In this document: piece by piece, positions 12,318-48,086 of the stretch
How positions within the stretch are numbered: the first letter of the stretch is position 1
Layout: the number at the start of each line of letters is the position of its first letter
From: Brenneria bubanii
Lineage (GTDB): Bacteria; Pseudomonadota; Gammaproteobacteria; Enterobacterales; Enterobacteriaceae
NCBI RefSeq assembly: GCF_022378355.1
Contig: NZ_JAKMAJ010000003.1
Span: 186,001-250,000, forward strand
Direction of reading: 5' to 3'
DNA length: 64,000 nucleotides
Made by a program: the position numbers and the translations under genes
Notes under the pieces: generated by a model
The model's database searches: none
Seen by the model: the letters and a program-made list of their open reading frames with translations, nothing else
What the model was told of the DNA's origin: nothing

Positions 12318-12376
12318 CGTCTTCTCCTCCCGCGCCACAAATCAGTGAACTAACGGGACAAAAGGGTCATCAGGCC

Positions 12377-13825: not shown

Positions 13826-13836
13826 AGGATATTCCC

Positions 13837-14754
<918 letters not shown>

Positions 14755-33464: not shown

Positions 33465-33480
33465 AGCCAAAATCATGCCA
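33465..33480 (-). promoter_or_regulatory. Candidate sigma-54 promoter of the urea operon
   Basis: On the minus strand TGGCATGATTTTGGCT has GG and GC dinucleotides with the correct 12-base offset. The -24 element TGGCAT is strong; the -12 element TGGC has one mismatch to TTGC. Predicted start is near 33454, about 30 bp before atzF. Confidence 0.55.
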
Positions 33481-33542
33481 GTTTTTTAATTTATTGATCT
33501 TATTATTTTTATTCTATTTTACGATCAGGATATTCATTGGTA

Positions 33543-33580
33543 TGCACGAAGAATGGGCAGTGTTGCGCCATTGTGGAGCA
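33543..33580. promoter_or_regulatory. Two tandem NtrC-like sites upstream of the urea operon
   Basis: Compared with TGCACC-N5-GGTGCA, the site at 33564-33580 (TGCGCC-N5-GGAGCA) matches 10 of 12 positions. The site at 33543-33559 (TGCACG-N5-TGGGCA) matches 9 of 12. Their centres are 21 bp apart, two helical turns, and about 97 and 118 bp upstream of the predicted start. This is the usual NtrC enhancer geometry. Confidence 0.45.
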
Positions 33581-33630: not shown

Positions 33631-34020
33631 TTACATCCCGCTTGACGGGGAAACAAACAGGTTGGCACTGAGAAAATCGATAAAGGCGCGCAGTTTTGGC
33701 GTCATATAACGTCCTGAGGGCCAGACGACGTGTAGACTGACCGTGCGTTCGACGTAATCTTCCAATACCCGGCGCAAGCGGCCGGCGGCTACGGAAAAGT
33801 CGGGCAGACAGGCAATCCCCAAACCGCGCAGCGCGAAACACACCCGGGTTTCAATATTATTGCAGACCATGGAGATGGGAATATGCAGCTCACTTTCCTT
33901 AGCCAGAGGCCAGGTTTCCAGCTTTCCGCTATTGGGAAAACGATAATGCAGGCAGGAATGCTGCGCCAGATCGACCGGCTGCTGCGGGATGCCCGCCCGC
34001 GCGAGATGAGCGCAGGCGCA
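33631..34020 (-). pseudogene. LysR regulator remnant (C-terminal part only)
   Basis: The frame from about 34020 to 33631 encodes the last 125 or so residues of a LysR effector domain. It has LARAGIPQQPVDLAQHSCLHYRF, then GKLETWPLAKES, LRGLGIACLPDFSVAAGRLRRVLEDY, LHVVWPSGRYMTPKLRAFIDFL and a normal end. Upstream of that the frame gives sequence unlike LysR, and no helix-turn-helix is found in any frame. The gene has therefore lost its 5' half by deletion or rearrangement. Confidence 0.75.
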
Positions 34021-34146
34021 GCCGGTATTCCCTGGATATTGGTGGCGCTGTTGATTGCCGGCTGGGTCATCGCATTGCTGGCCGATGAATATGGCTTCAA
34101 ACCGGGCACAAGAGGGACAATCATCCGGGGAGCCGGCAGAGAATAA
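34003..34146 (+). pseudogene. Possible 3' remnant of a membrane protein gene
   Basis: On the plus strand, opposite the point where LysR similarity ends, a short frame reads GIPWILVALLIAGWVIALLADEYGF followed by a basic tail and stop (ends 34146). It looks like one transmembrane helix plus a C-terminus, with good codon usage. It has no start of its own with a ribosome-binding site. It may be the tail of a deleted transporter gene; this is tentative. Confidence 0.25.
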
Positions 34147-34296
34147 TGCTCCGCTTCTACGTACTTCGCGCCAAAAGCGTGTCATTCAGTTAAGCAGTAT
34201 CTCGAAATGTATCCTGTAATAAATTCATCATAAATGGGGGCTACTTTGAAAAAAACGCATTTCCCCCTGTTTATAACGACGAAAAAGGAGCGCCTT

Positions 34297-35574
34297 ATGC
34301 GCTACAACAAACCCGTAATAACGGTGCTCGGCAGCGTTCTGATGATGAATTCGGCCTGGTCGATGCCGCAGAGCGAACAGAGTAAAGATATTGGCGCAAT
34401 CGTGGATACCACCACGCCGGCGAGTAAAAGTCGTCCGTTCACGGAACTGGAATTGAATATACAGACGGCGTTGCGTCAGGCTTTGCAGGGTGATGCCCCT
34501 TCCCTGACGCGACCGCGGCTGGAAACCGCCAAACAGAGCGCTCAGGTTGCCGATACTCAATGGCTGCGCGCCAGCGGCTATGACTTTGCCGAAAAGAAAA
34601 ACCAGCAGGCGGATATAGACATTCTCGGCGCTTTTTCACAGCTGCCTGCCGATGTTTTACAGCAGAATCTGGCGACCGTAACGCAGATTAACCGCGACGC
34701 TACGCAGGGCCAACGCGAGCAGGCGTTAGCCGATGCGGAAGGCATCAGCTATCTCTATTTTCTGGCCGATGCGCTGGGCCCGCGCCTCGGCGGCGCTTTT
34801 ATCAATGCTTACAATAAAGGCGAGCTGAATAAAGCCGCGGCGTTAATTAAAGCGTCAGAAGTCAGTACTTCCGCCTCCAAGGCGCATTTTAACTATCCTC
34901 GACCTTTCCTGCAGCCCGGCAACACCATTCATCTGGTGGCGGACAGCGTGGTGATAAAGGATAACAAGCCGTACAGCGCCACGGGCGGCGCCTTCCCCAG
35001 CGGCCACACCAACACCGGTTATACCGACGCATTATTGCTGGCTGAAATGCTGCCGGAGCGTTTTGTTCCGCTGATCGACCGGGGCGCTCGCTACGGTTTT
35101 TCCCGCGTGGTGTTGGGCGTGCACTATCCGCTTGATGTCATCGGTTCCAGAATGGTCGTGGAACGCAACGTGGCCAACTATCTTAACGATCCCCAGTATC
35201 GTCAGCTCTTTGAACAGGCGAAAACACAGTTGCGCAGCGCATTGGAAAAAGAGTGTGGTTCAACGCTGTCAGCCTGCGCGAAAAGCCAGGGCCGCGACGA
35301 CCCCTATACCGATCCGGCGATGGCAACTTTCTACCGCTTCACGATGACATACGGTTTGCCGGCACAGCATAAAGACGTTTCGCCGCTTAAGGATCCACAG
35401 GGCGCAGAGGTGCTGCTTGAGGCGCCGTTGCCTCAGTTATCTGCCGCGCAGCGTAAAAATTTGCTGGTTAAAACTGCCTATGCCGGAGGCTATCCGCTGT
35501 CTGGATCCGCCGAACAAAGTTTCTGGCACCGTCTGAACCTGCACGACGCGGTTTATCAGGGGACGACGCACTGA
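34297..35574 (+). CDS. PAP2-family periplasmic acid phosphatase
   Basis: The 425-residue protein begins with a signal peptide (cleavage near SAWSMPQ). The three PAP2 motifs are present: KAHFNYPRP near residue 194, GAFPSGHTNTGY near 232, and SRVVLGVHYPLDVIGS near 269. These are the residues that bind and transfer phosphate in class A acid phosphatases, but the protein is longer than PhoN (about 250 residues) at both ends. The ATG at 34297 is preceded by AAGGAG. It probably dephosphorylates organic phosphates in the periplasm. It stands alone. Confidence 0.88.
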   Translation: MRYNKPVITVLGSVLMMNSAWSMPQSEQSKDIGAIVDTTTPASKSRPFTELELNIQTALRQALQGDAPSLTRPRLETAKQSAQVADTQWLRASGYDFAEKKNQQADIDILGAFSQLPADVLQQNLATVTQINRDATQGQREQALADAEGISYLYFLADALGPRLGGAFINAYNKGELNKAAALIKASEVSTSASKAHFNYPRPFLQPGNTIHLVADSVVIKDNKPYSATGGAFPSGHTNTGYTDALLLAEMLPERFVPLIDRGARYGFSRVVLGVHYPLDVIGSRMVVERNVANYLNDPQYRQLFEQAKTQLRSALEKECGSTLSACAKSQGRDDPYTDPAMATFYRFTMTYGLPAQHKDVSPLKDPQGAEVLLEAPLPQLSAAQRKNLLVKTAYAGGYPLSGSAEQSFWHRLNLHDAVYQGTTH

Positions 35575-35621
35575 TACCCGTAATGGGTGTTGCAAGAAAA
35601 GCGTCGGCCTAAGAGAAATAC

Positions 35622-35652
35622 GGGATGAGCTTGCTGTTACGCGCCTCATCCC
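35622..35652. terminator. Hairpin after the PAP2 phosphatase gene
   Basis: GGGATGAG (35622-35629) pairs perfectly with CTCATCCC (35645-35652), about 50 bp after the stop codon, between converging genes. There is no T-run. Confidence 0.45.
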
Positions 35653-35669
35653 ATTGTAACCGGCGCCGC

Positions 35670-35750
35670 TCATTGCGTCGCCTGAACGTTACTCCTTACC
35701 CCGCCATGACTCATCTGAATCCGCCAGCGCCGCGGCACAACCAGCAGCAT
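35670..35750 (-). other. Short frame after the kinase gene, possible gene remnant
   Basis: A 26-codon frame (begins MLLVVPRRWRIQM, ends VQATQ) lies directly after the phosphotransferase gene. Read upstream, the frame has a short hydrophobic lead-in, as in the tail of a membrane protein. It may be chance; no ribosome-binding site is visible. Confidence 0.2.
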
Positions 35751-35752
35751 CG

Positions 35753-36817
35753 TCAAGATGAGGCTATCGGTTGTTGACAAGCCTGCAGTAGCCTGGCGTG
35801 ACATTGTTCGTATGTGTAATCCGCCAATCGCATCAGACCTAGCCAGCATGTCGACTGGTTGCGCAGCAGATAATCACGGTTTTCAGGATATAACGACGAT
35901 CGCCACTGCGGAATGGTTATGCCTAATGCCATACGCGTCGCTATCAGATCAGGAAGTAATGCGATCTCTTCGGTTTCCAGCGGCAGTTGATGATGATAGG
36001 CGGCCAGAAACGGCACCACGAATGCCAGCGGATCGTCCTCGCCACTGATTTGGTAAGCCAGCGCCGTGGCCAGCTCGGCAATCAGCGGCGCGTGCAGCGC
36101 ATCGCCAAAATCAATGATCCCCGCGACCTGCCGCGGATTATCCAACGCGACCAATGCATTATGCGGATTAAGATCGTTATGGATGGTTTGCTGACGCAGC
36201 GTTTTTAACCGCGGCGCCACGAACTGGTCGTAACGGTCGAAAATACGTTCGATGTGCGGCCGTTGCCGGGGGTCGACAAAGGTCAGATAAGGCCGTGTCT
36301 GCTCTGCCCGGCTGATATCCCATAATAACGGACGAGACGCGGCGGGATGCGAAAAATGCTGTAACGCCAGATCCAACTGCGCCAGGTTTTTCCCCAACCC
36401 CGCCATCAGTTCAACCGACGGCGGCACTTTATGCTGCGGCATCCCGTCCAGATAGCTCATCAGACGGATCCGCAGGGAAACGCCGTTAACCTCAACCAGC
36501 GGCTCCGCCAGTTGGCTCTGGGTGATAACGATTCGCGGAACGCACAATGCCGGCGCCTGTTGGGCGATATGCAACAATAAACTGGTCTGAAAGTGGCTGA
36601 CCTCGGCAGGTTCAGCCGTATTAATGACCTTGAGCATATAACGACGTTCCGCCGTGACCGTCAGACAGAAGTTTAGATCGCGCTCACCCTGCAACAATTC
36701 GATATGTCCACGCAGCCCGTATAAACGCCAGGCGATATCTTCCGCCTGACGGCAGGAAACCTGAGGTACTGACTGCGCCATCAAATCGTCGGCAAGCGCT
36801 GTTTTTTGCTGGTTCAT
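35753..36817 (-). CDS. Phosphotransferase of the APH/choline kinase fold
   Basis: The 354-residue protein has the kinase-like fold of aminoglycoside, homoserine and hydroxylysine kinases. The nucleotide-binding lysine is in YMLKVIN near residue 60, the catalytic loop is TIHNDLNPHNALV near 212, and the metal-binding loop is IIDFGDALHAPL near 234. It is the last gene of the polyamine-transport transcript. Related kinases occur beside class-III aminotransferases and phosphorylate amino alcohols or hydroxy amino acids (for example hydroxylysine). The substrate here is unknown but is probably an amine taken up by the transporter. Confidence 0.8.
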   Translation of the reverse strand: MNQQKTALADDLMAQSVPQVSCRQAEDIAWRLYGLRGHIELLQGERDLNFCLTVTAERRYMLKVINTAEPAEVSHFQTSLLLHIAQQAPALCVPRIVITQSQLAEPLVEVNGVSLRIRLMSYLDGMPQHKVPPSVELMAGLGKNLAQLDLALQHFSHPAASRPLLWDISRAEQTRPYLTFVDPRQRPHIERIFDRYDQFVAPRLKTLRQQTIHNDLNPHNALVALDNPRQVAGIIDFGDALHAPLIAELATALAYQISGEDDPLAFVVPFLAAYHHQLPLETEEIALLPDLIATRMALGITIPQWRSSLYPENRDYLLRNQSTCWLGLMRLADYTYEQCHARLLQACQQPIASS

Positions 36818-36850
36818 TGGCGATACCTCTTATCCGTCATGCTCGCCTGG

Positions 36851-37669
36851 TTAATGCCCGCCGCGCAGACGCTCTGACCTGCGGCGCAATATTTCCATAA
36901 CAATCAAAAGGATTAGCGCCGCACCTACCATCATGGAGGCGGCTGCGGCAATCGTTGGGTCAAGGTTTTCCCGAATACCGGCGAACATCTGCAGTGGCAG
37001 CGTGCGCTGACGCGGACTAGCGAGAAACAGCGTGACGATCACCTCATCGAATGAGGTGGCGAAGGCGAACAAGGCGCCGGAAAAAACGCCCGGCGCAATC
37101 AGTGGAAACGTCACTTTTCGGAAGGCCAGTAATGGCGGCGCGCCGAGACTTGCCGCCGCTCGCGTCAGATTTTGATCATAATTTTTCAGCACCGCGGTGA
37201 CGGTAATAACGACGAAGGGGACGCCGAGCATGGCATGCGCCAGCACCAAACCGATATAACTGTTCAATAAAGACAGCTTGGCGAAAAAGAAAAACATGCC
37301 GACCGCCACAATGACCACCGGTGCAATCATCGGCGATATCAGTACCGCCATCACCAATGATTTCCCTCTAAATTCGCCGCGCACCAGGCCCACTGACGCC
37401 AGAACGCCCAACACGGTCGCCAACAGGGTTGCCAGCGGCGCTATCAGCAGGCTGTTGCCCAGCGCGCTCAGCCATTCGTTGGAATTGAAAAACTCATGGT
37501 ACCAGCGCAGTGAAAAACCGCTCAGCGGATAACTCAGGAAAGATCCGGCGTTGAATGAAAGCGGTACAATGACCAGCACCGGCACGATCAGAAACAGGAG
37601 CATGGCCGCGCCGTAAAAGTTAAAGAACGTATTCCACAAGCGAATAACTGTTTCACCCTGCTGTTTCAT
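36851..37669 (-). CDS. Polyamine-type ABC transporter permease (PotC/PotI-like)
   Basis: The 272-residue inner-membrane protein has six hydrophobic segments and the binding-protein-dependent permease signature RAAASLGAPPLLAFRKVTFPLIAPGVFSGALFAFATSFDEV near residue 175. FDEVIVTLFL is typical of the PotC/PotI branch. I chose the ATG at 37669, with AAGGGA upstream, over an earlier in-frame start at 37702. It follows the PotB/PotH-like gene by about 130 bp. Confidence 0.9.
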   Translation of the reverse strand: MKQQGETVIRLWNTFFNFYGAAMLLFLIVPVLVIVPLSFNAGSFLSYPLSGFSLRWYHEFFNSNEWLSALGNSLLIAPLATLLATVLGVLASVGLVRGEFRGKSLVMAVLISPMIAPVVIVAVGMFFFFAKLSLLNSYIGLVLAHAMLGVPFVVITVTAVLKNYDQNLTRAAASLGAPPLLAFRKVTFPLIAPGVFSGALFAFATSFDEVIVTLFLASPRQRTLPLQMFAGIRENLDPTIAAAASMMVGAALILLIVMEILRRRSERLRGGH

Positions 37670-37800
37670 ATTCGTTTTCCCTTTGTTTATACCTGTCGCC
37701 AATCAGACCGCAGCGGCGCTCTGCTTATGTTTGCCGCTGACTGAGCTCCGGCAGATATAGCAATCGCATGTAAAAATAGTGGGTGTGCAACGCGCTGGCG

Positions 37801-39072
37801 TTAACGTGCCGCCACTTCGGCATTGGTTTTCGTCACCCGGATATAAACCACATACAGCAGCGTCACGATAATCAGCAACTGTGTTCCCAGTGCCGCGGCC
37901 ATACCCCAGTTCATGGTGGTATTGGTAAAGAAGGCGACGAAGTAGCTCAGCATTTGATCGCTTGGTCCGCCCAGCAGCGCCGGCGTGATGTAGTAGCCAA
38001 TCGCCATCATAAACACCAATAGCGCGCCAGCCGTGACGCCGGCATAGGTTTGCGGGACATAGACGCGCCAGAACGCGATGAAGGGATGCGCCCCCAGTGA
38101 GACGGCCGCTCTGACGTAGTTCGGCGAGATGCCCTTCATCACCGCATACAGCGGCAGGATAAAAAACGGCAACAAGATATGCGTCATCGAGATATAAACC
38201 CCGATGCGGTTAAAAACCAGTTCCAACGGTTGTCCAATGATGCCGAGATTAATCAACGATCGGTTAATTAGTCCGCCGGACTGCAACAGCACAATCCAAC
38301 TGGCGGTACGCACGATCAGCGATGTCCAGAACGGCAGCAGCACCAAAATCAGCAACAGATTGGCCCGGTTGGACGGCTGCTTTGCCAGCCAGTAGGACAA
38401 CGGATATCCCAGGCCGACGCACAGGAGCGTGACGACGCCGGCCATGAGCAACGTGCGCAATAATACATCGACATACAGCGACTGGTCGGGGGACTGCGGT
38501 ACGATTTCCTGGGTTTTAGCATCGACCTTGTGGTCAAAAACCGCGAGCAGGTAATAACTGGTAAACGGCCGCGATGCGCGATCCAGCGTCTGCCAGGTGG
38601 AGCGTTCTCCCCACAGCGGCTGATCGCCGATCAGTTTGCTTCGCATATCCGTACTGCCCTCGGCCGGCAGGTTACGCAGCGTACGGGTTATCAGCGTACG
38701 GTATTCCGCGCCTTCGTAACCGAGTCGTTTGGTAATCGCCGAGAGCTTACCGCCGCTACGCGCGGCGCGTAAATCGGTAATCACCGCCTGAAATACCGCT
38801 TCATCCGGCACGTCTTTACCGGACCATAGCCGCATCGCGGCTATGGTGGCTGGCATATTCTCCCTCAGTTCCGGATTGGAGACGCTTTTTCCCAGAATCG
38901 AGGTGATTGGGAAGAGAAAACTCACCACAATAAACAGAAACAAAGGCGCTATCAGCAGCAGGGAGCGTTTTTTATACACTGACTGAGCTTGACGTAGCTG
39001 CTGTTTCAGATTGGCGTTCCCTTCTTTTTCGCCGGACGGCGGCATGGCCGCCATCGTTTCGCTCTGGGTCAT
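37801..39072 (-). CDS. Polyamine-type ABC transporter permease (PotB/PotH-like)
   Basis: The 423-residue permease is longer than PotB/PotH (about 280-320) because a periplasmic insertion of about 140 residues (SNPELRENMPATIAAM to SLYVDVLLRT) follows the first transmembrane helix. The conserved core LPFWTSLIVRTASWIVLLQ and the EAA loop RAAVSLGAHPFIAFWRVYVPQTYAGV are clear. I prefer the ATG at 39072, which has GGAG eight bases upstream. With the PotI-like protein it forms the channel. Confidence 0.9.
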   Translation of the reverse strand: MTQSETMAAMPPSGEKEGNANLKQQLRQAQSVYKKRSLLLIAPLFLFIVVSFLFPITSILGKSVSNPELRENMPATIAAMRLWSGKDVPDEAVFQAVITDLRAARSGGKLSAITKRLGYEGAEYRTLITRTLRNLPAEGSTDMRSKLIGDQPLWGERSTWQTLDRASRPFTSYYLLAVFDHKVDAKTQEIVPQSPDQSLYVDVLLRTLLMAGVVTLLCVGLGYPLSYWLAKQPSNRANLLLILVLLPFWTSLIVRTASWIVLLQSGGLINRSLINLGIIGQPLELVFNRIGVYISMTHILLPFFILPLYAVMKGISPNYVRAAVSLGAHPFIAFWRVYVPQTYAGVTAGALLVFMMAIGYYITPALLGGPSDQMLSYFVAFFTNTTMNWGMAAALGTQLLIIVTLLYVVYIRVTKTNAEVAAR

Positions 39073-39118
39073 AGGCATTTCTCCATTTATGCTGATTGCC
39101 GATATCGCTATTTCTTAA

Positions 39119-40147
39119 TTACTGTGCAGCCCATGAGTTAAAGCGCTGTTCCAGTTCTTCACCGTGGTCGATCCAGAACTCGGTATCCACCTGCAGCGCC
39201 TGAGCCAGGTTCTCCGGCGCCGTTGGCAGGTTGCTGACGATTTCAGGCGCAATCAGACTCGTTGTTTTGATGTTGGTTGGGCCATAGGGGATATTTTCAG
39301 CAAAGATTTTCTGATTTTCAGGCTGGTTGGCGAAAGTGATAAATGATTCAGCCAGTGCTTTGTTTTTGGTGCCCTTCACAATCGCCCAGCTATCCAGATC
39401 GTAAATACTGTCGGCCCAGACGATACGGAAGTCATGCCCTTCTTTTTGCGCGGCGGCGACGCGACCATTGTAGGCCGAGGTCATCACCACATCACCGGAG
39501 ACCAGCCATTGCAGAGGCTGCGCACCGGACTCCCACCACTGGATATTGGATTTGATCTGATCCAGTTTTTTGAATGCGCGGTCAACGCCGGCCGGCGTTG
39601 CCAATACTTTATAAAGATCTTCACGTTTCACGCCATCGGCCAGCAGCGCAATTTCCAGCGTGAATTTAGCACTTTTACGCAGCGCGCGTTTCCCGGGGTA
39701 GTTTTTTACATCCCAGAAATCCGCCCAGCTCTTCGGCGCCTGTTGCAGTTTTTGGGCGTTGTAGGTTAATACGGTTGACCAAAGGAAAATGCCGGCGCCG
39801 CATTCAGATACCGAACCTTTTACAAACTGCGACTCATCGCCCAGTTTCTTCCAGTCCAGCGGTTCGAACAGGCCTTCGTTGCAGCCACGCAGCAATTCCG
39901 GGCCTTCCACTTCAACGACGTCCCAGCCAATCTGACCGGTTTCCACCATGGCGCGGATACGCGCCATCTCGCCGTTGTATTCTCCGGCTTGAACCGTGCC
40001 TTTGCCCGCCGCGGCAAACGGTTTATAAAATGCTTTGTCCTGCGCATCCTTATTGGTGCCGCCGAAGGAGATCACGGTGATGGATTCCGCCTGCGCCTGA
40101 CAGGCCATTGTGACGAGAAACGCTGATACGGCAATTTTCTTCAACAT
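39119..40147 (-). CDS. Polyamine-type ABC transporter substrate-binding protein (PotD/PotF-like)
   Basis: The 342-residue periplasmic protein has a signal peptide (MLKKIAVSAFLVTMACQAQA) and the polyamine-binding-protein pattern: VISFGGTNKDAQDKAFYKPF, VVEVEGPELLRGCNEGLFEPLDW, WADFWDVKNYPGKRALRK and IVWADSIYDLDSWAIVKGTKN. It is the first gene of the transcript PotD-like, PotH-like, PotI-like, kinase. AGGAG precedes the start. The ligand may be putrescine, spermidine or a related amine; the adjacent GABA genes favour putrescine. Confidence 0.9.
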   Translation of the reverse strand: MLKKIAVSAFLVTMACQAQAESITVISFGGTNKDAQDKAFYKPFAAAGKGTVQAGEYNGEMARIRAMVETGQIGWDVVEVEGPELLRGCNEGLFEPLDWKKLGDESQFVKGSVSECGAGIFLWSTVLTYNAQKLQQAPKSWADFWDVKNYPGKRALRKSAKFTLEIALLADGVKREDLYKVLATPAGVDRAFKKLDQIKSNIQWWESGAQPLQWLVSGDVVMTSAYNGRVAAAQKEGHDFRIVWADSIYDLDSWAIVKGTKNKALAESFITFANQPENQKIFAENIPYGPTNIKTTSLIAPEIVSNLPTAPENLAQALQVDTEFWIDHGEELEQRFNSWAAQ

Positions 40148-40225
40148 AGTTTGGCTCCTGAAGTGTGTTAGTCAACGTAAAGCAGGAAGTCAAGCATCAA
40201 GTCCTTGATGCGTCATGCATTATTA

Positions 40226-40241
40226 AGCATAAACCGTGCCA
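40226..40241 (-). promoter_or_regulatory. Candidate sigma-54 promoter of the polyamine transporter operon
   Basis: On the minus strand TGGCACGGTTTATGCT has a perfect -24 element (TGGCACG) and GC in register for -12. The predicted start is near 40215, about 70 bp before the PotD-like gene. Confidence 0.7.
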
Positions 40242-40353
40242 CTTTGGTGATTTGTGAATATACGGCGCAGCGGCCGGCGAGGACGCCTGAACAACCCACA
40301 GTGATGAATGAGCTGCCGTTTGCACTCGTTTCCTTGGTCAGGCATTTTCTTCT

Positions 40354-40392
40354 AATGGTGCGTCATGATAAAAACCGCACCATTCAGGTGCG
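40354..40392. promoter_or_regulatory. NtrC-binding site upstream of the polyamine transporter operon
   Basis: CGCACC-ATTCA-GGTGCG (40376-40392) contains the exact NtrC core GCACC-N5-GGTGC. An additional inverted copy, AATGGTGCG (40354-40362) against CGCACCATT (40376-40384), extends the element to one side. It lies about 170 bp upstream of the predicted sigma-54 start. Confidence 0.7.
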
Positions 40393-40462
40393 TGAGGGGT
40401 TTGCCAGACAAATACAAAAAAATGCACAATGCATTCGTATCCCCCTCTCGCCTTCACTCGAA

Positions 40463-41917
40463 CTAGCTGGAAAGATCGACGCAGAGGTACTTCATTTCCA
40501 GATAATCCTCGATACCGAAACGCGATCCTTCGCGTCCCAGCCCCGACTGTTTCACACCGCCGAAGGGCGCGACTTCATTAGAGATAAGTCCGGTGTTGAT
40601 ACCAACCATGCCGTAATCCAGCGCTTCGGGCACGGTCCATTGGCGCACGGCATTCCGCGTATAGACATAGGCAGCCAGTCCAAACTCCGTATCATTAGCC
40701 ATGGCGACCGCATCGGCTTCATTTTCAAACTGAAACAGCGGCGCTACCGGACCAAAGGTTTCTTCGCGGGCAAAACGCATATCGCGCGTCACATCGCCGA
40801 TGATGGTCGGGGTAAAAAAGGTGCCGCCCAGTTCATGCGGTTTACCGCCGAGAAGTAATGTAGCCCCTTTCGACAGCGCATCGGAAATATGCTGCTGGAC
40901 TTTGCCGATGGCATCGGCATCAATCAGCGGACCTTGCGTAACGCCGGGCTGAGTACCGTCACCCACCTTGAGTTTTTTGACTTCTGCAACCAGCTTTTCA
41001 ACCAGCGTCGGATAGATGCCCTTTTGTACATAAATCCGGTTGGCGCAAACGCAGGTTTGCCCGCTATTACGGAATTTTGAAGCCAGAATGCCTTTCACCG
41101 CCAGATCCGGGTCGGCATCGTCAAAGACGATAAAGGGCGCGTTGCCGCCCAGTTCCAGCGACAGCTTTTTCACCGTCGGCGCGCTTTGCGCCATCAGAAT
41201 CCGGCCGACTTCGGTTGAGCCGGTAAAGCTCAGCTTCCGCACGACCGGGCTATCGCACAGCGTTTTGCCCACCGACTGGGCATCTCCGGTGATGACCTGA
41301 AGCACGCCGCGCGGGATCCCCGCCTGCTGAGCCAATTCGCCCAACGCCAGCGCGGTAAACGGCGTTTGCTCCGCCGGTTTGACAATCATGGCGCAGCCGG
41401 CAGCCAGCGCGGGCGCCACTTTACGGGTGATCATCGCCGCTGGGAAATTCCAAGGGGTGATGGCCGCGCACACGCCGATTGGCTGTTTTATCACCAGCAA
41501 ACGCTGCTGCCCTTGCGGGGATTGCAATACGCTGCCTTCAACGCGTTTAGCTTCTTCGGCAAACCAGTCGATAAACGACGTGGCGTAGCCGATTTCACCT
41601 CGCGCCTCCGCCAGCGGTTTGCCTTGTTCCGCGGTTAACAACGCCGCCAGATCTTCCTGATTTTCCATAATCAGGCGCGACCATGCCTGCAGTACGGCCG
41701 CCCGCTCTTTACCGGTACGCTTGCGCCATTCGGCCTGCGCCCGCTCCGCGGCGGCAATCGCTTGTTCAGTTTGTGACGACGTCACTAATGGAATGGTTCC
41801 CAACACCTCCCCGCTGGCCGGATTGACCACCTCAAGATGCTCGCCGCTCTGGCTGTCGCGCCATTCACCGTCAATTAAACAGTGCTGGCGAAATAATGCT
41901 TTTTGATTCAGTTGCAT
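40463..41917 (-). CDS. gabD: Succinate-semialdehyde dehydrogenase
   Basis: The 484-residue aldehyde dehydrogenase oxidises succinate semialdehyde to succinate, the second step of GABA breakdown. The catalytic glutamate is in LELGGNAPFIVFDDAD near residue 255, and the catalytic cysteine is in FRNSGQTCVCANRIYV near 288. The sequences ITPWNFPAAMITRK and GKPLAEARGEI are typical of GabD. The length equals the E. coli enzyme. It begins 10 bp after gabT with GAGGAA upstream, so gabTD is one transcript. A related aldehyde dehydrogenase activity, for example glutarate semialdehyde, cannot be excluded. Confidence 0.93.
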   Translation of the reverse strand: MQLNQKALFRQHCLIDGEWRDSQSGEHLEVVNPASGEVLGTIPLVTSSQTEQAIAAAERAQAEWRKRTGKERAAVLQAWSRLIMENQEDLAALLTAEQGKPLAEARGEIGYATSFIDWFAEEAKRVEGSVLQSPQGQQRLLVIKQPIGVCAAITPWNFPAAMITRKVAPALAAGCAMIVKPAEQTPFTALALGELAQQAGIPRGVLQVITGDAQSVGKTLCDSPVVRKLSFTGSTEVGRILMAQSAPTVKKLSLELGGNAPFIVFDDADPDLAVKGILASKFRNSGQTCVCANRIYVQKGIYPTLVEKLVAEVKKLKVGDGTQPGVTQGPLIDADAIGKVQQHISDALSKGATLLLGGKPHELGGTFFTPTIIGDVTRDMRFAREETFGPVAPLFQFENEADAVAMANDTEFGLAAYVYTRNAVRQWTVPEALDYGMVGINTGLISNEVAPFGGVKQSGLGREGSRFGIEDYLEMKYLCVDLSS

Positions 41918-41927
41918 GGCCTTCCTC

Positions 41928-43193
41928 TTACTTGGTAAGCACGCGAGTCAGAATGGTCATCGCTTTGCTAAACTGGTCGTCTGGAATGGTCAGCGGATGC
42001 AGAAAACGAATGACGTTGCCGTGCACGCCACAGGTCAGCAGCAGCAGCCCCTGATCCAGCGCTTCTTTCTGAAACTTACGCGTAATGTCAGCAGACGGTT
42101 TGCCGGTCTGAGGATCGTTGAATTCCGCCGCCACCATTGAACCCTGCGCGCGAATCGCCACCAAAGCCGGACACTGCTGTTTTGCCTTTTCCAGGGTCTC
42201 CACCAGTGCCGCGCCCAGACGTTGCGAACGCTGACACAGCTTTTCTTCTTCAATCACTTTGAGAACCGCCAGTGCCGAGGCGACCGCCAGCGGGTTACCG
42301 GCATAGGTTCCCCCTAATCCGCCGGGACCGGGCGCATCCATCACGTCGGCACGGCCCACCACGCCGGAAATGGGGAAGCCGCCGCCCAGGCTCTTCGCCA
42401 TGGTGATCAGGTCAGCCTGCTCAGCGTAATATTCCATGGCAAACAGCTTACCGGTACGGGCGAAACCTGTCTGTACCTCATCGGCAATAAGTAAAATACC
42501 GTGTTTATCACACAATTCGCGCAATGCGCTGATAAACTCCGGCGGCGCAACGTTGAATCCCCCTTCGCCCTGAACCGGCTCCAATAGGATCGCGGCCACC
42601 TGATCGGCGGCGATATCGGTATGGAACAGGCGGTCGATACTTTCCAGCGACTGTTCTACCGTGATGCCGGTCAGCGCATTCGGATACAACGCATGAAAGA
42701 TAGAGCCAGGGAACGGACCAAAACCGGTAGAGTAAGGCGCGACCTTTCCGGTTAAGGTCATCGTCAGCAGCGTACGGCCATGGAACGCCGCGCCAAATGC
42801 GATAACGCCGGGACGCTTGGTATAGGCCCGCGCAATTTTTACGGCATTTTCCACCGCTTCCGCACCGGTGGTGAAAAAAGTGGTTTTCGCCGCTCCCTTG
42901 ATAGGGGCCAGCGCATTGATACGCTCCGCCAGTTCGACATAGCTGCCGTAAGGCACAATCTGATAGGCGGTATGGGTAAAACATTCCAGTTGTTCACGCA
43001 CCGCGGCCAAAATTTTCGGGTGGCGATGACCGGTATTCAGCACCGCGATCCCTGCAGCGAAGTCGATAAACTCACGCCCCTCGATATCCCATAACGTGGC
43101 GTTTTCCGCGCGGGCGGCATAAAAATCACACATCACACCGACACCACGTGGCGTGGCCGCCAAACGACGTTGATTTAGTTCGCTATTATTCAT
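41928..43193 (-). CDS. gabT: 4-aminobutyrate aminotransferase
   Basis: The 421-residue class-III aminotransferase transfers the amino group of GABA to 2-oxoglutarate. The PLP aspartate is in LIADEVQTGFARTG near residue 240, and the Schiff-base lysine is in MAKSLGGGFPISGVVG near 269. TTGAEAVENAVKIARAYT and AFHGRTLLTMTLTGK are family motifs. I chose the ATG at 43193, with GGAG six bases upstream. It is divergent from a MocR regulator, the usual arrangement for gabT control. Confidence 0.94.
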   Translation of the reverse strand: MNNSELNQRRLAATPRGVGVMCDFYAARAENATLWDIEGREFIDFAAGIAVLNTGHRHPKILAAVREQLECFTHTAYQIVPYGSYVELAERINALAPIKGAAKTTFFTTGAEAVENAVKIARAYTKRPGVIAFGAAFHGRTLLTMTLTGKVAPYSTGFGPFPGSIFHALYPNALTGITVEQSLESIDRLFHTDIAADQVAAILLEPVQGEGGFNVAPPEFISALRELCDKHGILLIADEVQTGFARTGKLFAMEYYAEQADLITMAKSLGGGFPISGVVGRADVMDAPGPGGLGGTYAGNPLAVASALAVLKVIEEEKLCQRSQRLGAALVETLEKAKQQCPALVAIRAQGSMVAAEFNDPQTGKPSADITRKFQKEALDQGLLLLTCGVHGNVIRFLHPLTIPDDQFSKAMTILTRVLTK

Positions 43194-43297
43194 TTTCTGC
43201 TCCGATTTAAAGAACACATCCAACGCATTAATAACATGCTGTGGGACGTGATGCGGTTGGTCTATTCACTTCTTTATGTTGCTATTTATGCGCCAGA

Positions 43298-43318
43298 TGG
43301 CTCTATAATCCAGAGCCA
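43298..43318 (+). promoter_or_regulatory. Inverted repeat overlapping a -10 box, MocR/gabT control
   Basis: TGGCTCT (43298-43304) pairs perfectly with AGAGCCA (43312-43318). The sequence across the left arm and spacer contains TATAAT (43304-43309), a perfect -10 box reading toward the MocR gene. A repressor bound here would block that promoter. Confidence 0.6.
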
Positions 43319-43344
43319 GTTTTTAATATTTGAGGGATCCAATT

Positions 43345-44829
43345 TTGCGCTCGCTCTTGACCGATTTATTGCTCCAGCGTTTGAGTAACCAGCAGGAAGG
43401 CACGTTGAATAAACGCCTTTATGACAGTATCCGGCTGGCCATCCTCGATGGCGCCATCGCGGCCGGCAGCCGGTTGCCTTCGTCTCGTGATTTGGCGCAT
43501 GAGCTGTCGCTGTCCCGCAACACGGTGCTGGCGGCCTATGAACAGCTGATGGCCGAGGGCTATATCGAAGCCCGGACCGGAAGCGGCACATTCGTCACCG
43601 AGCAGCTCCCCGACGGCAACATGGCGCCGGTACGCAATGAGCATGAAATTTTTTCCCGCCAGCCCATGCAGGAGCTGTCGCGCCGTGGAATGCACCTGCT
43701 GGGGTACGCCGGCGCGTCGGCCCGGCAATGGGGGGCATTTATGCCCGGAATTCCCGACATATCCAGTTTTCCTCACGATCTGTGGCGCAGGATACAAACC
43801 CGGCTTGCCCGCCGCGCGCTTCCCGAGCAACTGTCCTATTCTCCTGTCGGAGGCCGCCCTGAGCTGCAATTGGCTCTGGTGGATTATCTGCGCGTCGCCC
43901 GCTCCGTCGAATGTGCCCCGGAGCAGATTTTGATTACCGAAGGTACGCATCAGGCGATGGACCTGCTGGCTAAGATGCTGTGTAACCCCGGCGATCTGGC
44001 CTGGATTGAAGACCCTTGCTACTGGGGCACGCGGAATCTATTGACGATTAACGGGCTTCGGGTCGCGCCAGTCGAAGTGGATGATCAGGGCATGGCGCCG
44101 CCGGATACCGTTTCCCCTCAATCAATACCGCGGCTGATCTGCGTGACGCCCTCGCATCAATATCCGCTCGGCGCCGTGATGAGTCTGGCGCGGCGTCAGC
44201 GATTGCTGGCCTTGGCGCAGGAGCATGGCTGTTGGGTGGTGGAGGATGACTACGACAGCGAGTTTCGTTTCTCCGGCAACCCCATCCCCGCGCTGCAAGG
44301 GCTGCAAACGCCATCGCCGGTGATTTACATTGGCACCTTCAGCAAGACGCTTTATCCGGGGCTGCGCGTCAGCTACATGGTGCTGCCGCCGCAATTGGCG
44401 CGTGAGCTGAAGGTCGCCCATTCCGAACTGTACCGCGGCGGCCACTGGTTGACGCAGGCGACGCTCGGTCAGTTTATCCGCGAAGGACATTATGCCGCCC
44501 ACATACGCCGTATGCGCTTGCTTTATGCGAAACGGCGGGCCATGTTGACCGAGCTGATAGAACAGCATTTAGGCACGGATTACGTCGGCGACAACAGCAA
44601 TGCGGGGTTGCATATGCTGCTTAGACTGCCCGCCAACCTTGATGACGTACTGCTTAGCGCGCATATCCTGCGCCGCGGCGTGATGGTAAAGCCGCTTTCC
44701 AGCTACTATCTGCGTCAGACCAGGGATCGTGGATTACTGTTGGGATACGCCGGTGTGGAAGAGAGTAAAATGGCGCAGTCGTTTGCGGTCATTGTCGAGT
44801 GCATTCGCGCACAAATATCCACAAAATAG
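43345..44829 (+). CDS. MocR-type regulator (GntR helix-turn-helix fused to aminotransferase fold)
   Basis: The 494-residue protein has a winged helix (LPSSRDLAHELSLSRNTVLAAYEQLMAEGYIEARTGSGTFV) joined to a class-I aminotransferase-like domain that binds PLP. The PLP lysine is in YIGTFSKTLYPGLRVSYM, and VEDDYDSEFRF holds the PLP aspartate. Such proteins (GabR, PdxR) sense PLP and GABA or related amines. I chose the TTG at 43345, with GAGGGA at 43332-43337. Its position, divergent from gabT, makes GabR-like control of gabTD likely. Confidence 0.9.
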   Translation: MRSLLTDLLLQRLSNQQEGTLNKRLYDSIRLAILDGAIAAGSRLPSSRDLAHELSLSRNTVLAAYEQLMAEGYIEARTGSGTFVTEQLPDGNMAPVRNEHEIFSRQPMQELSRRGMHLLGYAGASARQWGAFMPGIPDISSFPHDLWRRIQTRLARRALPEQLSYSPVGGRPELQLALVDYLRVARSVECAPEQILITEGTHQAMDLLAKMLCNPGDLAWIEDPCYWGTRNLLTINGLRVAPVEVDDQGMAPPDTVSPQSIPRLICVTPSHQYPLGAVMSLARRQRLLALAQEHGCWVVEDDYDSEFRFSGNPIPALQGLQTPSPVIYIGTFSKTLYPGLRVSYMVLPPQLARELKVAHSELYRGGHWLTQATLGQFIREGHYAAHIRRMRLLYAKRRAMLTELIEQHLGTDYVGDNSNAGLHMLLRLPANLDDVLLSAHILRRGVMVKPLSSYYLRQTRDRGLLLGYAGVEESKMAQSFAVIVECIRAQISTK

Positions 44830-44851
44830 GTTTTTATCGACATCATCTCAC

Positions 44852-44868
44852 TGCACCAAACAAGTGCC
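44852..44868. promoter_or_regulatory. NtrC-like site upstream of the transporter ATPase gene
   Basis: TGCACC-AAACA-AGTGCC matches the core GCACC-N5-GGTGC in 9 of 10 positions. Its centre is about 130 bp upstream of the start predicted from the sigma-54 promoter at 44964-44979. Confidence 0.6.
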
Positions 44869-44963
44869 TGTAAATTGATTAAACTCACCAAAATAATGCA
44901 ATGCGCCTGCGTGTTTTCGCCCTAATGGTTTTAACTCATTCTCTGAGTTCGATTTAATCAAAT

Positions 44964-44979
44964 AGGCACGATTTATGCA
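44964..44979 (+). promoter_or_regulatory. Candidate sigma-54 promoter of the transporter ATPase gene
   Basis: AGGCACGATTTATGCA has GG and GC in the correct register. It matches the PotD-operon promoter closely (GGCACGRTTTATGC in both). The predicted start is near 44990. Confidence 0.65.
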
Positions 44980-45016
44980 TATAGTCAGGTTAAGACACGT
45001 TACCGCGAGAAATGGA

Positions 45017-46114
45017 ATGATGAGAACCTATGTCAGTTTCAAGAACATTCAGAAGACTTATGATGGCGATCGCTTGGTGGTAAAAAATCTCAATCTGGAT
45101 ATTAAAGAAGGCGAATTCCTGACCCTGCTCGGTCCTTCCGGCTCAGGGAAAACCACTAGTCTGATGATGCTTGCCGGGTTCGAAACCCCGACTCAAGGTG
45201 AGATTTTCCTGCATGATACGCCGTTGCATAATTTGCCGCCGCACCAACGCGGCATCGGCATGGTTTTTCAAAACTACGCGCTGTTTCCTCATATGACGGT
45301 GGCCGAAAACCTGGCCTTTCCCTTGTCTATCCGACGGTTGAATAAAGCGGATATCAAAGAAAAGGTCGATCGCGTTTTGGATCGCGTTAAGCTGACCAGC
45401 CTGGCCGACCGCTACCCGGCGCAAATGTCCGGCGGCCAGCAGCAGCGCGTCGCGCTGGCGCGCGCGCTGGTTTTTGAGCCCAAACTGGTGCTGATGGATG
45501 AACCACTGGGCGCATTGGATAAACAGTTGCGCGAACACATGCAGTTGGAGATCAAGGAACTGCATGAATCTCTCGAGCTTACCGTGGTTTATGTGACTCA
45601 CGACCAAAGCGAAGCGATGACGATGTCTAACCGGGTTGCCGTATTCAACGACGGCGTTATTCAGCAGATGGATAGCCCGAGCGATATTTATGAAAAACCG
45701 GAAAATGCCTTCGTGGCGCAATTTATCGGGGAAAACAATACGCTGATTGCGACTCAGGCCGGTGCGGAAGGAAACTTCTACCGCGCAACGCTGGATGATG
45801 GCACGCAGCTACGGGCGCTTAAGGTGCGTCCAAGTTCGCCGGGTAAAAAAATCACCCTTTGCATTCGACCGGAACGCATCCGCATTAATGCGCCAAACCC
45901 AGGCGCCGATGTCCAGCAGGTCAAAGCGCGCATCCAACAGTTTATTTATCTGGGCGACCACGTACGCATGATGACGGAAGTCGCCGGTCAGCCGCAGTTT
46001 ATGGTCAAACTGCCCGCCAGCGAAATTCAACCACAGTGGAAGGCCGGTTCCGAAGTGACATTGTCCTGGCATCCGGAACATTTACGCGCATTGGATGTGA
46101 TAAAAACGCATTAA
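45017..46114 (+). CDS. Polyamine-type ABC transporter ATPase (PotA/PotG-like)
   Basis: The 365-residue ATPase has Walker A LLGPSGSGKTT near residue 38, signature MSGGQQQRVALARAL near 136, Walker B LVLMDEPLGALD near 155, and a C-terminal TOBE domain (about 280-365) typical of PotA/PotG. The frame begins upstream at 44975, but that lies inside the sigma-54 promoter, so I place the start at the ATG pair 45017/45020. It should power the PotD/H/I-like transporter encoded 5-8 kb away on the opposite strand, because no other permease in the window lacks an ATPase. Confidence 0.9.
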   Translation: MMRTYVSFKNIQKTYDGDRLVVKNLNLDIKEGEFLTLLGPSGSGKTTSLMMLAGFETPTQGEIFLHDTPLHNLPPHQRGIGMVFQNYALFPHMTVAENLAFPLSIRRLNKADIKEKVDRVLDRVKLTSLADRYPAQMSGGQQQRVALARALVFEPKLVLMDEPLGALDKQLREHMQLEIKELHESLELTVVYVTHDQSEAMTMSNRVAVFNDGVIQQMDSPSDIYEKPENAFVAQFIGENNTLIATQAGAEGNFYRATLDDGTQLRALKVRPSSPGKKITLCIRPERIRINAPNPGADVQQVKARIQQFIYLGDHVRMMTEVAGQPQFMVKLPASEIQPQWKAGSEVTLSWHPEHLRALDVIKTH

Positions 46115-46128
46115 TAAAGACAAATAAA

Positions 46129-46157
46129 AAACCGCACGCCCTTTCGGGGTGCGGTTT
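46129..46157 (+). terminator. Terminator after the transporter ATPase gene
   Basis: ACCGCAC (46131-46137) pairs with GTGCGGT (46149-46155), with further CCC/GGG pairing inside and A/T flanks on both sides, so it can work in both directions. It separates this gene from the converging GlsB-like gene. Confidence 0.75.
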
Positions 46158-46176
46158 CACGCGGAGACGACTTGCT

Positions 46177-46425
46177 TTAGCTGCTGATTTTACGGTAAAT
46201 CCACAGCACGACAATGGCGCCAATCACCGCGACGATGAAACTGCCGAAGTTGAAACCGTCCACTCGTCCGAAGCCAAAGAACGTGCTGATATATCCCCCA
46301 ACCACGGCGCCCACGATCCCCAGAACCACCGTCAGGATAAAACCACCGCCGTCTTTGCCCGGCATTATCCACTTAGCTAAAATACCTGCGATCAACCCAA
46401 AAATAACCCAAGACAAAATTCCCAT
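46177..46425 (-). CDS. GlsB/YeaQ/YmgE family small membrane protein
   Basis: The 82-residue protein is a transglycosylase-associated-type membrane protein with three hydrophobic segments separated by glycine-rich turns (GILSWVIFGLIAGILAKWIMPG, ILTVVLGIVGAVVGGYI, GSFIVAVIGAIVVLWIYRK). Members are stress-induced, and their biochemical role is not known. GAGG lies five bases before the ATG. Confidence 0.9.
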   Translation of the reverse strand: MGILSWVIFGLIAGILAKWIMPGKDGGGFILTVVLGIVGAVVGGYISTFFGFGRVDGFNFGSFIVAVIGAIVVLWIYRKISS

Positions 46426-46799
46426 ACTAACCTCGCTTTTTTGTGAAGGGTCATCTTACCCGCCCTCCGTCGGGTCACCGCGGTGCAGCACGCCAAGCAC
46501 TTCCGGCGTTTTTATTATTTCATGAAGGTTTTTATCTGCAAATGAACTTATGCAGACAAAACGCGACTGTAATTATAGACAAGAATTATCATTCGGGGAG
46601 AAACCGGCAAAATTAGACTAACCGATTGATTATATTATCGACACTCCGTCATGGTTACCCTTTTGTAAACGTTTCCTAAACGAAGTGGTTATTTATGATT
46701 AATTATAGAAGTAATCCTAACGGACGGCATATTTCACTCGGCTAAACTGTTTATTACAGCACCTTCCCGCTGTTGCAACTGGATTGACTGAGGAACGAC
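46426..46799. other. Intergenic region between divergent genes
   Basis: About 370 bp with the promoters of the GlsB-like gene and the acyltransferase gene. It is AT-rich in the middle. I see no gene or strong structure. Confidence 0.5.
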
Positions 46800-48086
46800 A
46801 TGACGGAAGTGAGTAAGGTCAGAAAAGAACGATTTATCGGGCTGGAATGGTTGCGTTTCCTGCTTGGCTGCTATGTGATGATTTATCACACGGTGCATAC
46901 TTATCCACAACGAGCCAGCGTGCCGTTTCTGGAAGAGTTCACCAGTATGGGATTTTTTGCCACCAGCACGTTTTTCGTGCTGTCTGGTTTTTTATTGGCG
47001 CACGTTTACATCAAGGATGGCCGCCTGCGTGAACCTGCCCGACGCTTCTGGGCAAAACGTTTTTTTAATCTCTATCCGATTCATATTATCGCGTTACTGG
47101 CGTCAATTGCCGTTGTCTCCCTGATGCAATGGCTCGCCATACCGCCTGAAGGCCAGGTCGCCAGCGCCCGTTTTGTGATTTATGACACTAACGAGGCCAA
47201 TATCGATCCGCAAACCCTGCGTCACTATATGACGAACGCCCAACTGGCGTTTAACAGCGTGCTGCAATTGTTGATGCTACAGGCGTGGAATCCCTATTTC
47301 CTCACCTTCAATGCCCCATTGTGGTCTCTTTCCACCCTGTTCTTCTTCTATCTGATGTTTCCTCTGATGGCGCCCCGCCTGCTGCGAAGTCTTCATCCCT
47401 GGGTATGGATGGGGATTATCTGCTTGCTTTATTTGCTGCCGCCGATTTGGGTTATCTGGCAACAGCAGTACGGCATGCCGTATACCGGCCTGTTGCAGCG
47501 GGGACCTATTTTCCGTCTGCCTGAGTTTTTAGCCGGCATTTTGGGCTATGCGATCTTCCGCGATTATCGTCAAAAAGGCATCGCGCCGCTGAGCAAAAGG
47601 CAGTATTACGGCATAATTCTGTTCATCGTCGGCAACTTCATTATCGGCACCTGGCTGTATACCCATGGTGAAGCCTATTGGTACTTCCTGCTGCATAACG
47701 GTCTGCTGCTGCCCGCCCAGGTCGGTCTGGTGTGCCTGTGCGCGCTGGCTCGCGAACCCGATAGCGAATGGCTGAGACACTGGTCGCCGCGGCTGGGCGC
47801 CGCATCCTTATCGATCTTCGCGCTGCATGTGCCGCTATTTAATTTATTTCGCACGATTGAACAACTGGTGCGCGGCAATCCGCTGGCCTGCTTTAGCGAT
47901 TGGCCTCTGTGCGTGGCCGCCGCCGGACAGGTTCAACTGTCGCTGACGGGCTATGTTATTTTCCTGCTGTCGACGGTGGCGCTATGCGTACTGTTCCAGG
48001 AACAGATCGTTTTTCGCGTCCGGCAATTTCTGACCAACCATTATCTGAACCGCGGCCTCTCATCCCGCTCACCGCGCGCGACCTGA
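46800..48086 (+). CDS. Acyltransferase family 3 membrane protein
   Basis: The 428-residue integral membrane protein has about ten hydrophobic segments and the acyltransferase_3 opening GLEWLRFLLGCYVMIYHTVH, where the histidine in YHTVH is the expected catalytic residue. FFATSTFFVLSGFLLAHVY and RFWAKRFFNLYPIHI are also family motifs. Relatives (OafA, WecH, ExoZ) O-acetylate polysaccharides or sugars at the membrane. No polysaccharide genes are nearby, so the substrate is unknown. GAGGAA precedes the ATG. Confidence 0.88.
   Translation: MTEVSKVRKERFIGLEWLRFLLGCYVMIYHTVHTYPQRASVPFLEEFTSMGFFATSTFFVLSGFLLAHVYIKDGRLREPARRFWAKRFFNLYPIHIIALLASIAVVSLMQWLAIPPEGQVASARFVIYDTNEANIDPQTLRHYMTNAQLAFNSVLQLLMLQAWNPYFLTFNAPLWSLSTLFFFYLMFPLMAPRLLRSLHPWVWMGIICLLYLLPPIWVIWQQQYGMPYTGLLQRGPIFRLPEFLAGILGYAIFRDYRQKGIAPLSKRQYYGIILFIVGNFIIGTWLYTHGEAYWYFLLHNGLLLPAQVGLVCLCALAREPDSEWLRHWSPRLGAASLSIFALHVPLFNLFRTIEQLVRGNPLACFSDWPLCVAAAGQVQLSLTGYVIFLLSTVALCVLFQEQIVFRVRQFLTNHYLNRGLSSRSPRAT

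Follow-up and report, generated by a model that had tools for sequence, protein, structure and literature searches.

AgtABCD of Pseudomonas aeruginosa PAO1 is described in PMC11113362 as an ATP-binding cassette (ABC) importer for γ-aminobutyrate (GABA) and 5-aminovalerate, and joint control by NtrC and sigma-54, for which TGCACCAnnnTGGTGCA is given as the NtrC consensus (PMC8743547), is a well-known kind of control. Here we describe a putative importer of this type in Brenneria bubanii, encoded within a 64-kb window (the whole stretch of DNA that was analysed, part of a 4.89-Mb draft assembly) on both strands around the genes for GABA breakdown. From left to right, the locus consists of genes for a kinase, two permeases and a substrate-binding protein (SBP) on the minus strand, gabD and gabT on the same strand, and then mocR and an ATPase gene, called potA here, on the plus strand. 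Both importer transcripts are preceded by a predicted sigma-54 promoter with NtrC-type sites farther upstream, and we consider it quite probable that these units drive both transcripts under nitrogen limitation, with the MocR regulator controlling gabTD. The regulatory features are as follows.

40226..40241, minus strand: -24/-12 (sigma-54) promoter predicted for the SBP-permease-permease-kinase transcript; matrix score 16.7, rank 1; predicted start near 40215
44964..44979, plus strand: -24/-12 (sigma-54) promoter predicted for potA; matrix score 16.3, rank 2; predicted start near 44990
40376..40392, minus strand: NtrC site CGCACCATTCAGGTGCG with an exact 5+5 core, centred 143 nt before the -24 element
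40353..40362, minus strand: half-site CGCACCATTA, at the place of the relatives' second NtrC site and degenerate in the window
44852..44868, plus strand: NtrC site 1 of potA, TGCACCAAACAAGTGCC, with 9 of 10 core bases, centred 104 nt before the -24 element
44884..44900, plus strand: NtrC site 2 of potA, CTCACCAAAATAATGCA, 32 bp downstream of site 1

The scores come from a weight matrix built from 42 intergenic Escherichia coli sigma-54 sites found by chromatin immunoprecipitation (PMC4591121, Table 1), and the ranks are among all window positions on both strands. On the minus strand (40241-40226) the SBP element reads TGGCACGGTTTATGCT, with its first base 94 nt upstream of the SBP ATG at 40147; on the plus strand (44964-44979) the potA element reads AGGCACGATTTATGCA, with its first base 56 nt upstream of the potA ATG at 45020. 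In a leave-one-out comparison, the SBP element scores at least as high as 30 of the 42 E. coli sites and the potA element at least as high as 28. The 14-mer that the two share, GGCACGRTTTATGC, occurs twice in the assembly, both times at these promoters, whereas the reversed control pattern does not occur. One NtrC gene and one rpoN gene over their models' cut-offs are encoded in the genome. No sigma-54 element of comparable quality lies in the gap between gabT and mocR, where the best score is 10.1 in the window, as against 16.3 and 16.7, and below 6 in most loci; this gap was rejected as a sigma-54 region.

The two potA sites form a pair that was equalled by none of 300 dinucleotide shuffles, the source of the pair p values given here for the window and its genus. 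The exact core, GCACC-N5-GGTGC, occurs ten times in the genome, compared with three times for a control pattern; seven of the ten lie within long open reading frames, two make up a pair upstream of glnA and one is the SBP site. We take this gene to be glnA from its sequence; an NtrC gene lies 3 kb beyond it. The glnA pair is also 32 bp apart, with centres at -115 and -83 (potA: -104 and -72), counted from the first base of the -24 element. A preliminary description of this DNA had reported near-identical -24/-12 promoters, an exact NtrC core upstream of the first and a 9-of-10 core upstream of the second. Its coordinates and letters are correct, although it overlooked the second potA site, and both sequence and conservation bear out its picture of a single transporter encoded in two transcripts that each have a sigma-54 promoter preceded by NtrC sites.

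The SBP gene is present in all ten available genomes of the genus, and the interval from nine of them was compared with the window. Both promoters are kept throughout: in the orthologous interval, the best two matrix matches on either strand are the SBP and potA promoters in all ten, including one genome (L173) in which the second match (11.6) is barely above the third (11.2). Each keeps a constant position with respect to paired NtrC sites, themselves 31-32 bp apart. The potA pairs reach p <= 0.007 in all nine relatives as well as in the window, and the SBP pairs p <= 0.003 in eight of the nine. As a negative control, the gabT-mocR gap gave a pair with p < 0.05 in none of 24 loci, the lowest value being 0.07.

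Conservation extends beyond the genus. Seventeen other Pectobacteriaceae loci were examined, three of which (L003, L006 and L009) come from the same genomes as the genus relatives G001, G009 and G004. By a 12-base consensus the potA element is found in all 17 and the SBP element in 16, the symbiont L012 having an SBP element with a damaged -24 GG. Across the 14 loci outside the genus, the best conserved 16-mers cover both elements: the SBP element is the top 16-mer of 301 upstream of its gene, and the potA element the top of 175, offset by one base. NtrC pairs at p <= 0.01 are present in 10 of 13 SBP regions and 7 of 14 potA regions. Farther out, the SBP promoter persists in all six Erwiniaceae/Rahnella loci, with matrix scores of 14.4-17.4. 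Among 57 non-enterobacterial loci, none has a site scoring at least 13 directly upstream of the SBP gene. A co-directional ATPase match, mostly preceding the SBP, occurs in 39 of them, and a site of that quality lies upstream of it in 3 of the 38 that could be assessed (L023, L025 and L081; L067 was not assessable). The twin promoter arrangement is lineage-bound, as only its SBP half is kept at the usual position in the Erwiniaceae/Rahnella loci. Separately, a palindrome around GATGCATCA near the predicted SBP transcript start (about 40205-40222) appears in many relatives (L003-L012 and L019); it is perfect in L010-L012, as TTGATGCATGATGCATCAA, and reads GACGCATCA in the window.

The nature of the importer has to be read from its genes, which are listed here with two further features of the locus.

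35753..36817, minus strand: APH-fold small-molecule kinase, resembling the N-terminal part of PRK06148 (model matches)
36851..37702, minus strand: ABC permease, PotC/PotI-like (model matches)
37801..39078, minus strand: ABC permease, PotB/PotH-like (model matches)
39119..40147, minus strand: SBP gene of the GABA/5-aminovalerate type by its best solved matches (9d57, 4eq7, 6dgv); ATG at 40147
40405..40450, minus strand: candidate gabTD terminator, AATGCA-TTG-TGCATT followed by T7; -12.3 kcal/mol, z -2.9
40463..41917, minus strand: gabD, succinate-semialdehyde dehydrogenase; TIGR01780, 723.7 bits (cut-off 646.35)
41928..43193, minus strand: gabT, 4-aminobutyrate transaminase; NF005272, 846.6 bits (cut-off 725), and TIGR00700, 623 bits (cut-off 506.65)
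43298..43318, no strand assigned: conserved TGGCTCTATAATCCAGAGCCA block between gabT and mocR, an inverted repeat in the window and a candidate MocR operator
43330..44829, plus strand: MocR-family regulator with GntR and aminotransferase fold; TTG start, 43345 as an alternative
45020..46114, plus strand: potA-type ATPase gene; ATG at 45020 or 45017, a further ATG at 44975 falling within the promoter

Curated models are passed by gabT and gabD, and the transporter parts pass broad models only. The top solved matches of the SBP, whose closest named match is that of B. alni (95% identity), are 9d57 (E = 1.7e-58), 4eq7 (3.2e-56) and 6dgv (1.8e-55). The first and third are a GABA sensor built on Pf622 and the second is Atu4243, and both parent proteins are named as GABA-binding in PMC12999171; PotD and PotF chains come far lower (E from 1e-14 to 6e-4). 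Mapping by hand the eight ligand-site residues given for iGABASnFR2 in that source, we found four to be identical in the SBP (F100, R205, D228 and Y264), including D228, which is reported there to contact the GABA amino group. The resulting pattern F-N-F-x-W-Y-R-D-Y is common to 71 of 92 homologous matches, among them both SBPs of L065 and of L071, two Agt-like loci discussed below. Taking these observations together, we suggest, with moderate confidence, GABA or a closely related compound as the likely ligand.

The preliminary description had called the system a polyamine transporter, and this part of an otherwise largely correct reading of split twin control is not supported. The name arises because the ATPase passes the broad subfamily model TIGR01187, 'polyamine ABC transporter ATP-binding protein' (372.3 bits against 355.6). 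An importer mainly for putrescine or spermidine would also suit permeases resembling PotB, PotC, PotH and PotI, and the E. coli putrescine operon potFGHI is an RpoN target (PMC8743547, PMC4591121). However, every Pot equivalog model falls below its cut-off: PotD (53.8 of 582 bits) and PotF (20.1 of 636) for the SBP, PotC (183.1 of 326), PotI (131.2 of 476), PotH (168.2 of 489) and PotB (156.4 of 348) for the permeases, and PotA (363.6 of 482) and PotG (293 of 613) for the ATPase. Further, the solved structures closest to the SBP are GABA binders, gabT and gabD lie between the transporter halves, and GABA or 5-aminovalerate is reported to be preferred by three related SBPs of P. aeruginosa for which spermidine and putrescine had been the predicted ligands (PMC11113362). 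We therefore regard a polyamine importer as unlikely.

The genes for GABA breakdown appear to be controlled differently. Neither gabT nor gabD has a sigma-54 site of similar quality, and they share a conserved operator-like block with the divergent mocR, so gabTD catabolism probably answers to substrate through MocR. Both gabT and mocR diverge from this block, which is conserved, as ACTGGCTCTGGATTATAGAACCA or a sequence close to that, across the 24 loci shown. The regulator carries GntR (PF00392) and aminotransferase-like (PF00155) domains, both over cut-off. It fails the GabR model NF052285 (303.3 against 600), passes the PdxR model NF052282 (431.3 against 320) and scores best with a rhizopine MocR model, under the cut-off (481.4 against 650). 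Proteobacterial GabR motifs are described in PMC5320631 as two direct repeats and one inverted repeat.

The reading that we favour, in which NtrC and sigma-54 govern uptake and MocR governs breakdown, would work as follows. Two transcripts running outward from a central mocR-gabTD block, each beginning at its own sigma-54 promoter, would encode an ABC importer of the Agt/Gbt type, with GABA and probably 5-aminovalerate as substrates. From the sites, their spacing and their conservation, we infer NtrC binding and activation: when nitrogen is short, phosphorylated NtrC would occupy the upstream sites and loop to the sigma-54 holoenzyme, opening both promoters together, so that SBP, permeases and ATPase would appear in step. 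This is the co-ordinated nitrogen control put forward in the preliminary description, and for us, too, it is an inference. MocR, responding to a presumed substrate signal, would set gabTD, with catabolism following substrate.

Several observations weigh against this reading. The SBP promoter in the window has one exact site and a half-site, which do not form a significant pair (p = 0.79), and the same pair is not significant in B. alni (L171; p = 0.157); the exact site at 40376-40392 also resembles a terminator, with a hairpin followed by a T tract. By the matrix, the potA promoter is often weaker, at 11.0-15.9 in the nine genus relatives. Half of the non-genus Pectobacteriaceae loci (7 of 14: Dickeya, Lonsdalea and Prodigiosinella) keep the potA promoter without an NtrC pair, and in all six Erwiniaceae/Rahnella loci the forward element is missing from its conserved position upstream of potA. 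Finally, the other four of the eight GABA-site residues, again mapped by hand, differ (W9 to F, T13 to N, position 102 to W and W202 to Y).

The missing potA pairs bear on an alternative in which the promoters are indeed sigma-54 promoters and another enhancer-binding protein activates one or both. Candidates exist, as a genome search with the NtrC model returned at least seven further strong matches (163-395 bits) below the cut-off, mostly probably other sigma-54 activators, and in two Dickeya loci (L013 and L014), where potA lacks NtrC pairs, TGTGCA-N3-TGCACA-like palindromes lie upstream of both promoters. Within the genus, by contrast, the paired sites fit the NtrC consensus at 31-32 bp spacing and a fixed distance, and the arrangement upstream of glnA in this genome is the same, so we consider a different activator improbable. 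A TGCA-N3-TGCA palindrome was not adopted as an operator for the whole cluster: it occurs in 0 of 24 gabT-mocR gaps and is only scattered elsewhere, the count for the window covering 1780 nt, more than that gap.

The Erwiniaceae/Rahnella loci raise another possibility, that the shared GGCAYGNTTTATGCA element is an operator of some other regulator that works in either orientation and is no promoter. All six (L019-L022, L024 and L026) carry, about equally far from potA, a similar -24/-12-like element that faces the other way. Forward matrix scores within 300 nt upstream of potA are at most 9.8 in this group, and L021, L022 and L026 have consensus matches of 9-10 of 12 at 282-304 nt upstream of the gene. 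Nevertheless, it is exactly the -24 and -12 bases of the SBP element that stay while its middle bases vary, these same six loci included, and the spacing to the NtrC sites is fixed, which makes an orientation-free operator very unlikely. The remaining alternative, that the palindrome at 40376-40392 is the gabTD transcription terminator, draws on the six base pairs of its hairpin and on the GTTTTTATCA that comes after, and deserves least credence of all, given that a hairpin-plus-T scan of the region found 6 against 6.2 expected by chance, that 13 other loci (L003-L009, L014-L018 and L074) lack the T run and keep the NtrC match at the same distance, and that a separate T7 hairpin, the candidate at 40405-40450, lies just upstream.

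How one importer might have come to need two such units is a matter on which we can offer a tentative suggestion. In most non-enterobacterial loci that have both genes, the ATPase is in one operon with the SBP. Enterobacterial potA may have moved beyond mocR, and Pectobacteriaceae potA may subsequently have acquired a complete enhancer-promoter unit. The importer would be kept in step by two independent copies of the nitrogen switch, and catabolism governed by a separate one that responds to substrate; uptake would then track nitrogen need and breakdown would track substrate. The flipped element of the Erwiniaceae could be another result of this relocation. The five Erwiniaceae loci also have a conserved GTTGTGGTAGNGCTAAAAAA block in the mocR-potA gap. 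An Rfam scan found nothing credible in the window at 34000-48000 or in the Erwinia gap (L021), the only hits being to eukaryotic families and far short of the gathering scores.

We also noted several features of the surrounding DNA. The third-ranked sigma-54 site in the window (15.15), at 33465-33481 on the minus strand, lies 41 nt upstream of an allophanate hydrolase gene in another nitrogen operon, with urea carboxylase and urea-transporter genes downstream. The region upstream of it (33543-33580) holds the best NtrC-consensus match of the window (33564, 12 of 14) and another (33543, 10 of 14); its best 31-bp pair has p = 0.003. A sigma-54-like element 40 nt upstream of nifH scores 10.5 (rank 16 in the window); nifH, nifD and nifK are over their model cut-offs at 10752-14721 on the minus strand, and nifE is over its cut-off about 5.4 kb upstream of the window start. 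At the other end of the importer operon, L006 (11449-14556) has the transporter genes followed by the kinase and a second class III aminotransferase, the window retaining the kinase alone (35753-36817). Between transporter genes and kinase, L006 has what we take to be a short-chain-dehydrogenase-like gene. The kinase and aminotransferase also lie downstream in L004-L012 and L019. Speculatively, a hydroxylated GABA analogue could be the substrate of this pair, with the two enzymes serving as kinase and phospholyase. PMC5320631 mentions, in one GabR regulon, a COG2334 kinase together with a gabT paralogue.

GABA is abundant in plants, and Brenneria, Pectobacterium, Dickeya and Lonsdalea are plant-living. 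If our reading is correct, GABA is for these bacteria a source of nitrogen that they take up when it is needed, and the locus represents a naturally broken operon whose two parts are tied together by duplicated or convergent regulation, with graded relatives in which the origin of the second switch could be tested. A common annotation as 'polyamine transporter' would be corrected as well. An open-access literature search returned no publication describing NtrC/sigma-54 promoters for this transporter; the many predicted regulatory sites for Pectobacterium atrosepticum in PMC4888284 may already include these promoters.

The locus can be set beside four known arrangements. First, it shares with AgtABCD the probable substrate class and the SBP family; in L065 and L071, which have the gene order described for agt, both SBPs are 57-58% identical to that of the window and have the same pocket letters. 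The agtABCD genes are one operon served by the AgtSR two-component system, whereas here the ATPase is split off and both halves have NtrC/sigma-54 sites. Second, GbtABCD of the GabR regulons (PMC5320631) is a GABA ABC transporter, also accompanied by gabT, gabD and a MocR-family regulator. MocR-type control is predicted there for the transporter; in the window the transporter has predicted sigma-54/NtrC promoters, the operator-like block is found only at gabTD, and the regulator fails the GabR model, as noted. Third, the gab cluster of Bacillus thuringiensis also places GABA genes under sigma-54, and a dedicated sigma-54 activator, 'GabR', is reported there to control gabT (PMC4279683), in contrast to the NtrC-matching sites here and a gabT without a comparable element. 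Finally, glnA, glnHPQ and potFGHI of E. coli, as presented in PMC8743547 and PMC4591121, show the same layout of a -24/-12 promoter and upstream NtrC sites before a nitrogen-source transporter; the Brenneria locus differs from these operons in its type of substrate and in having two separate enhancer-promoter units for one transporter.

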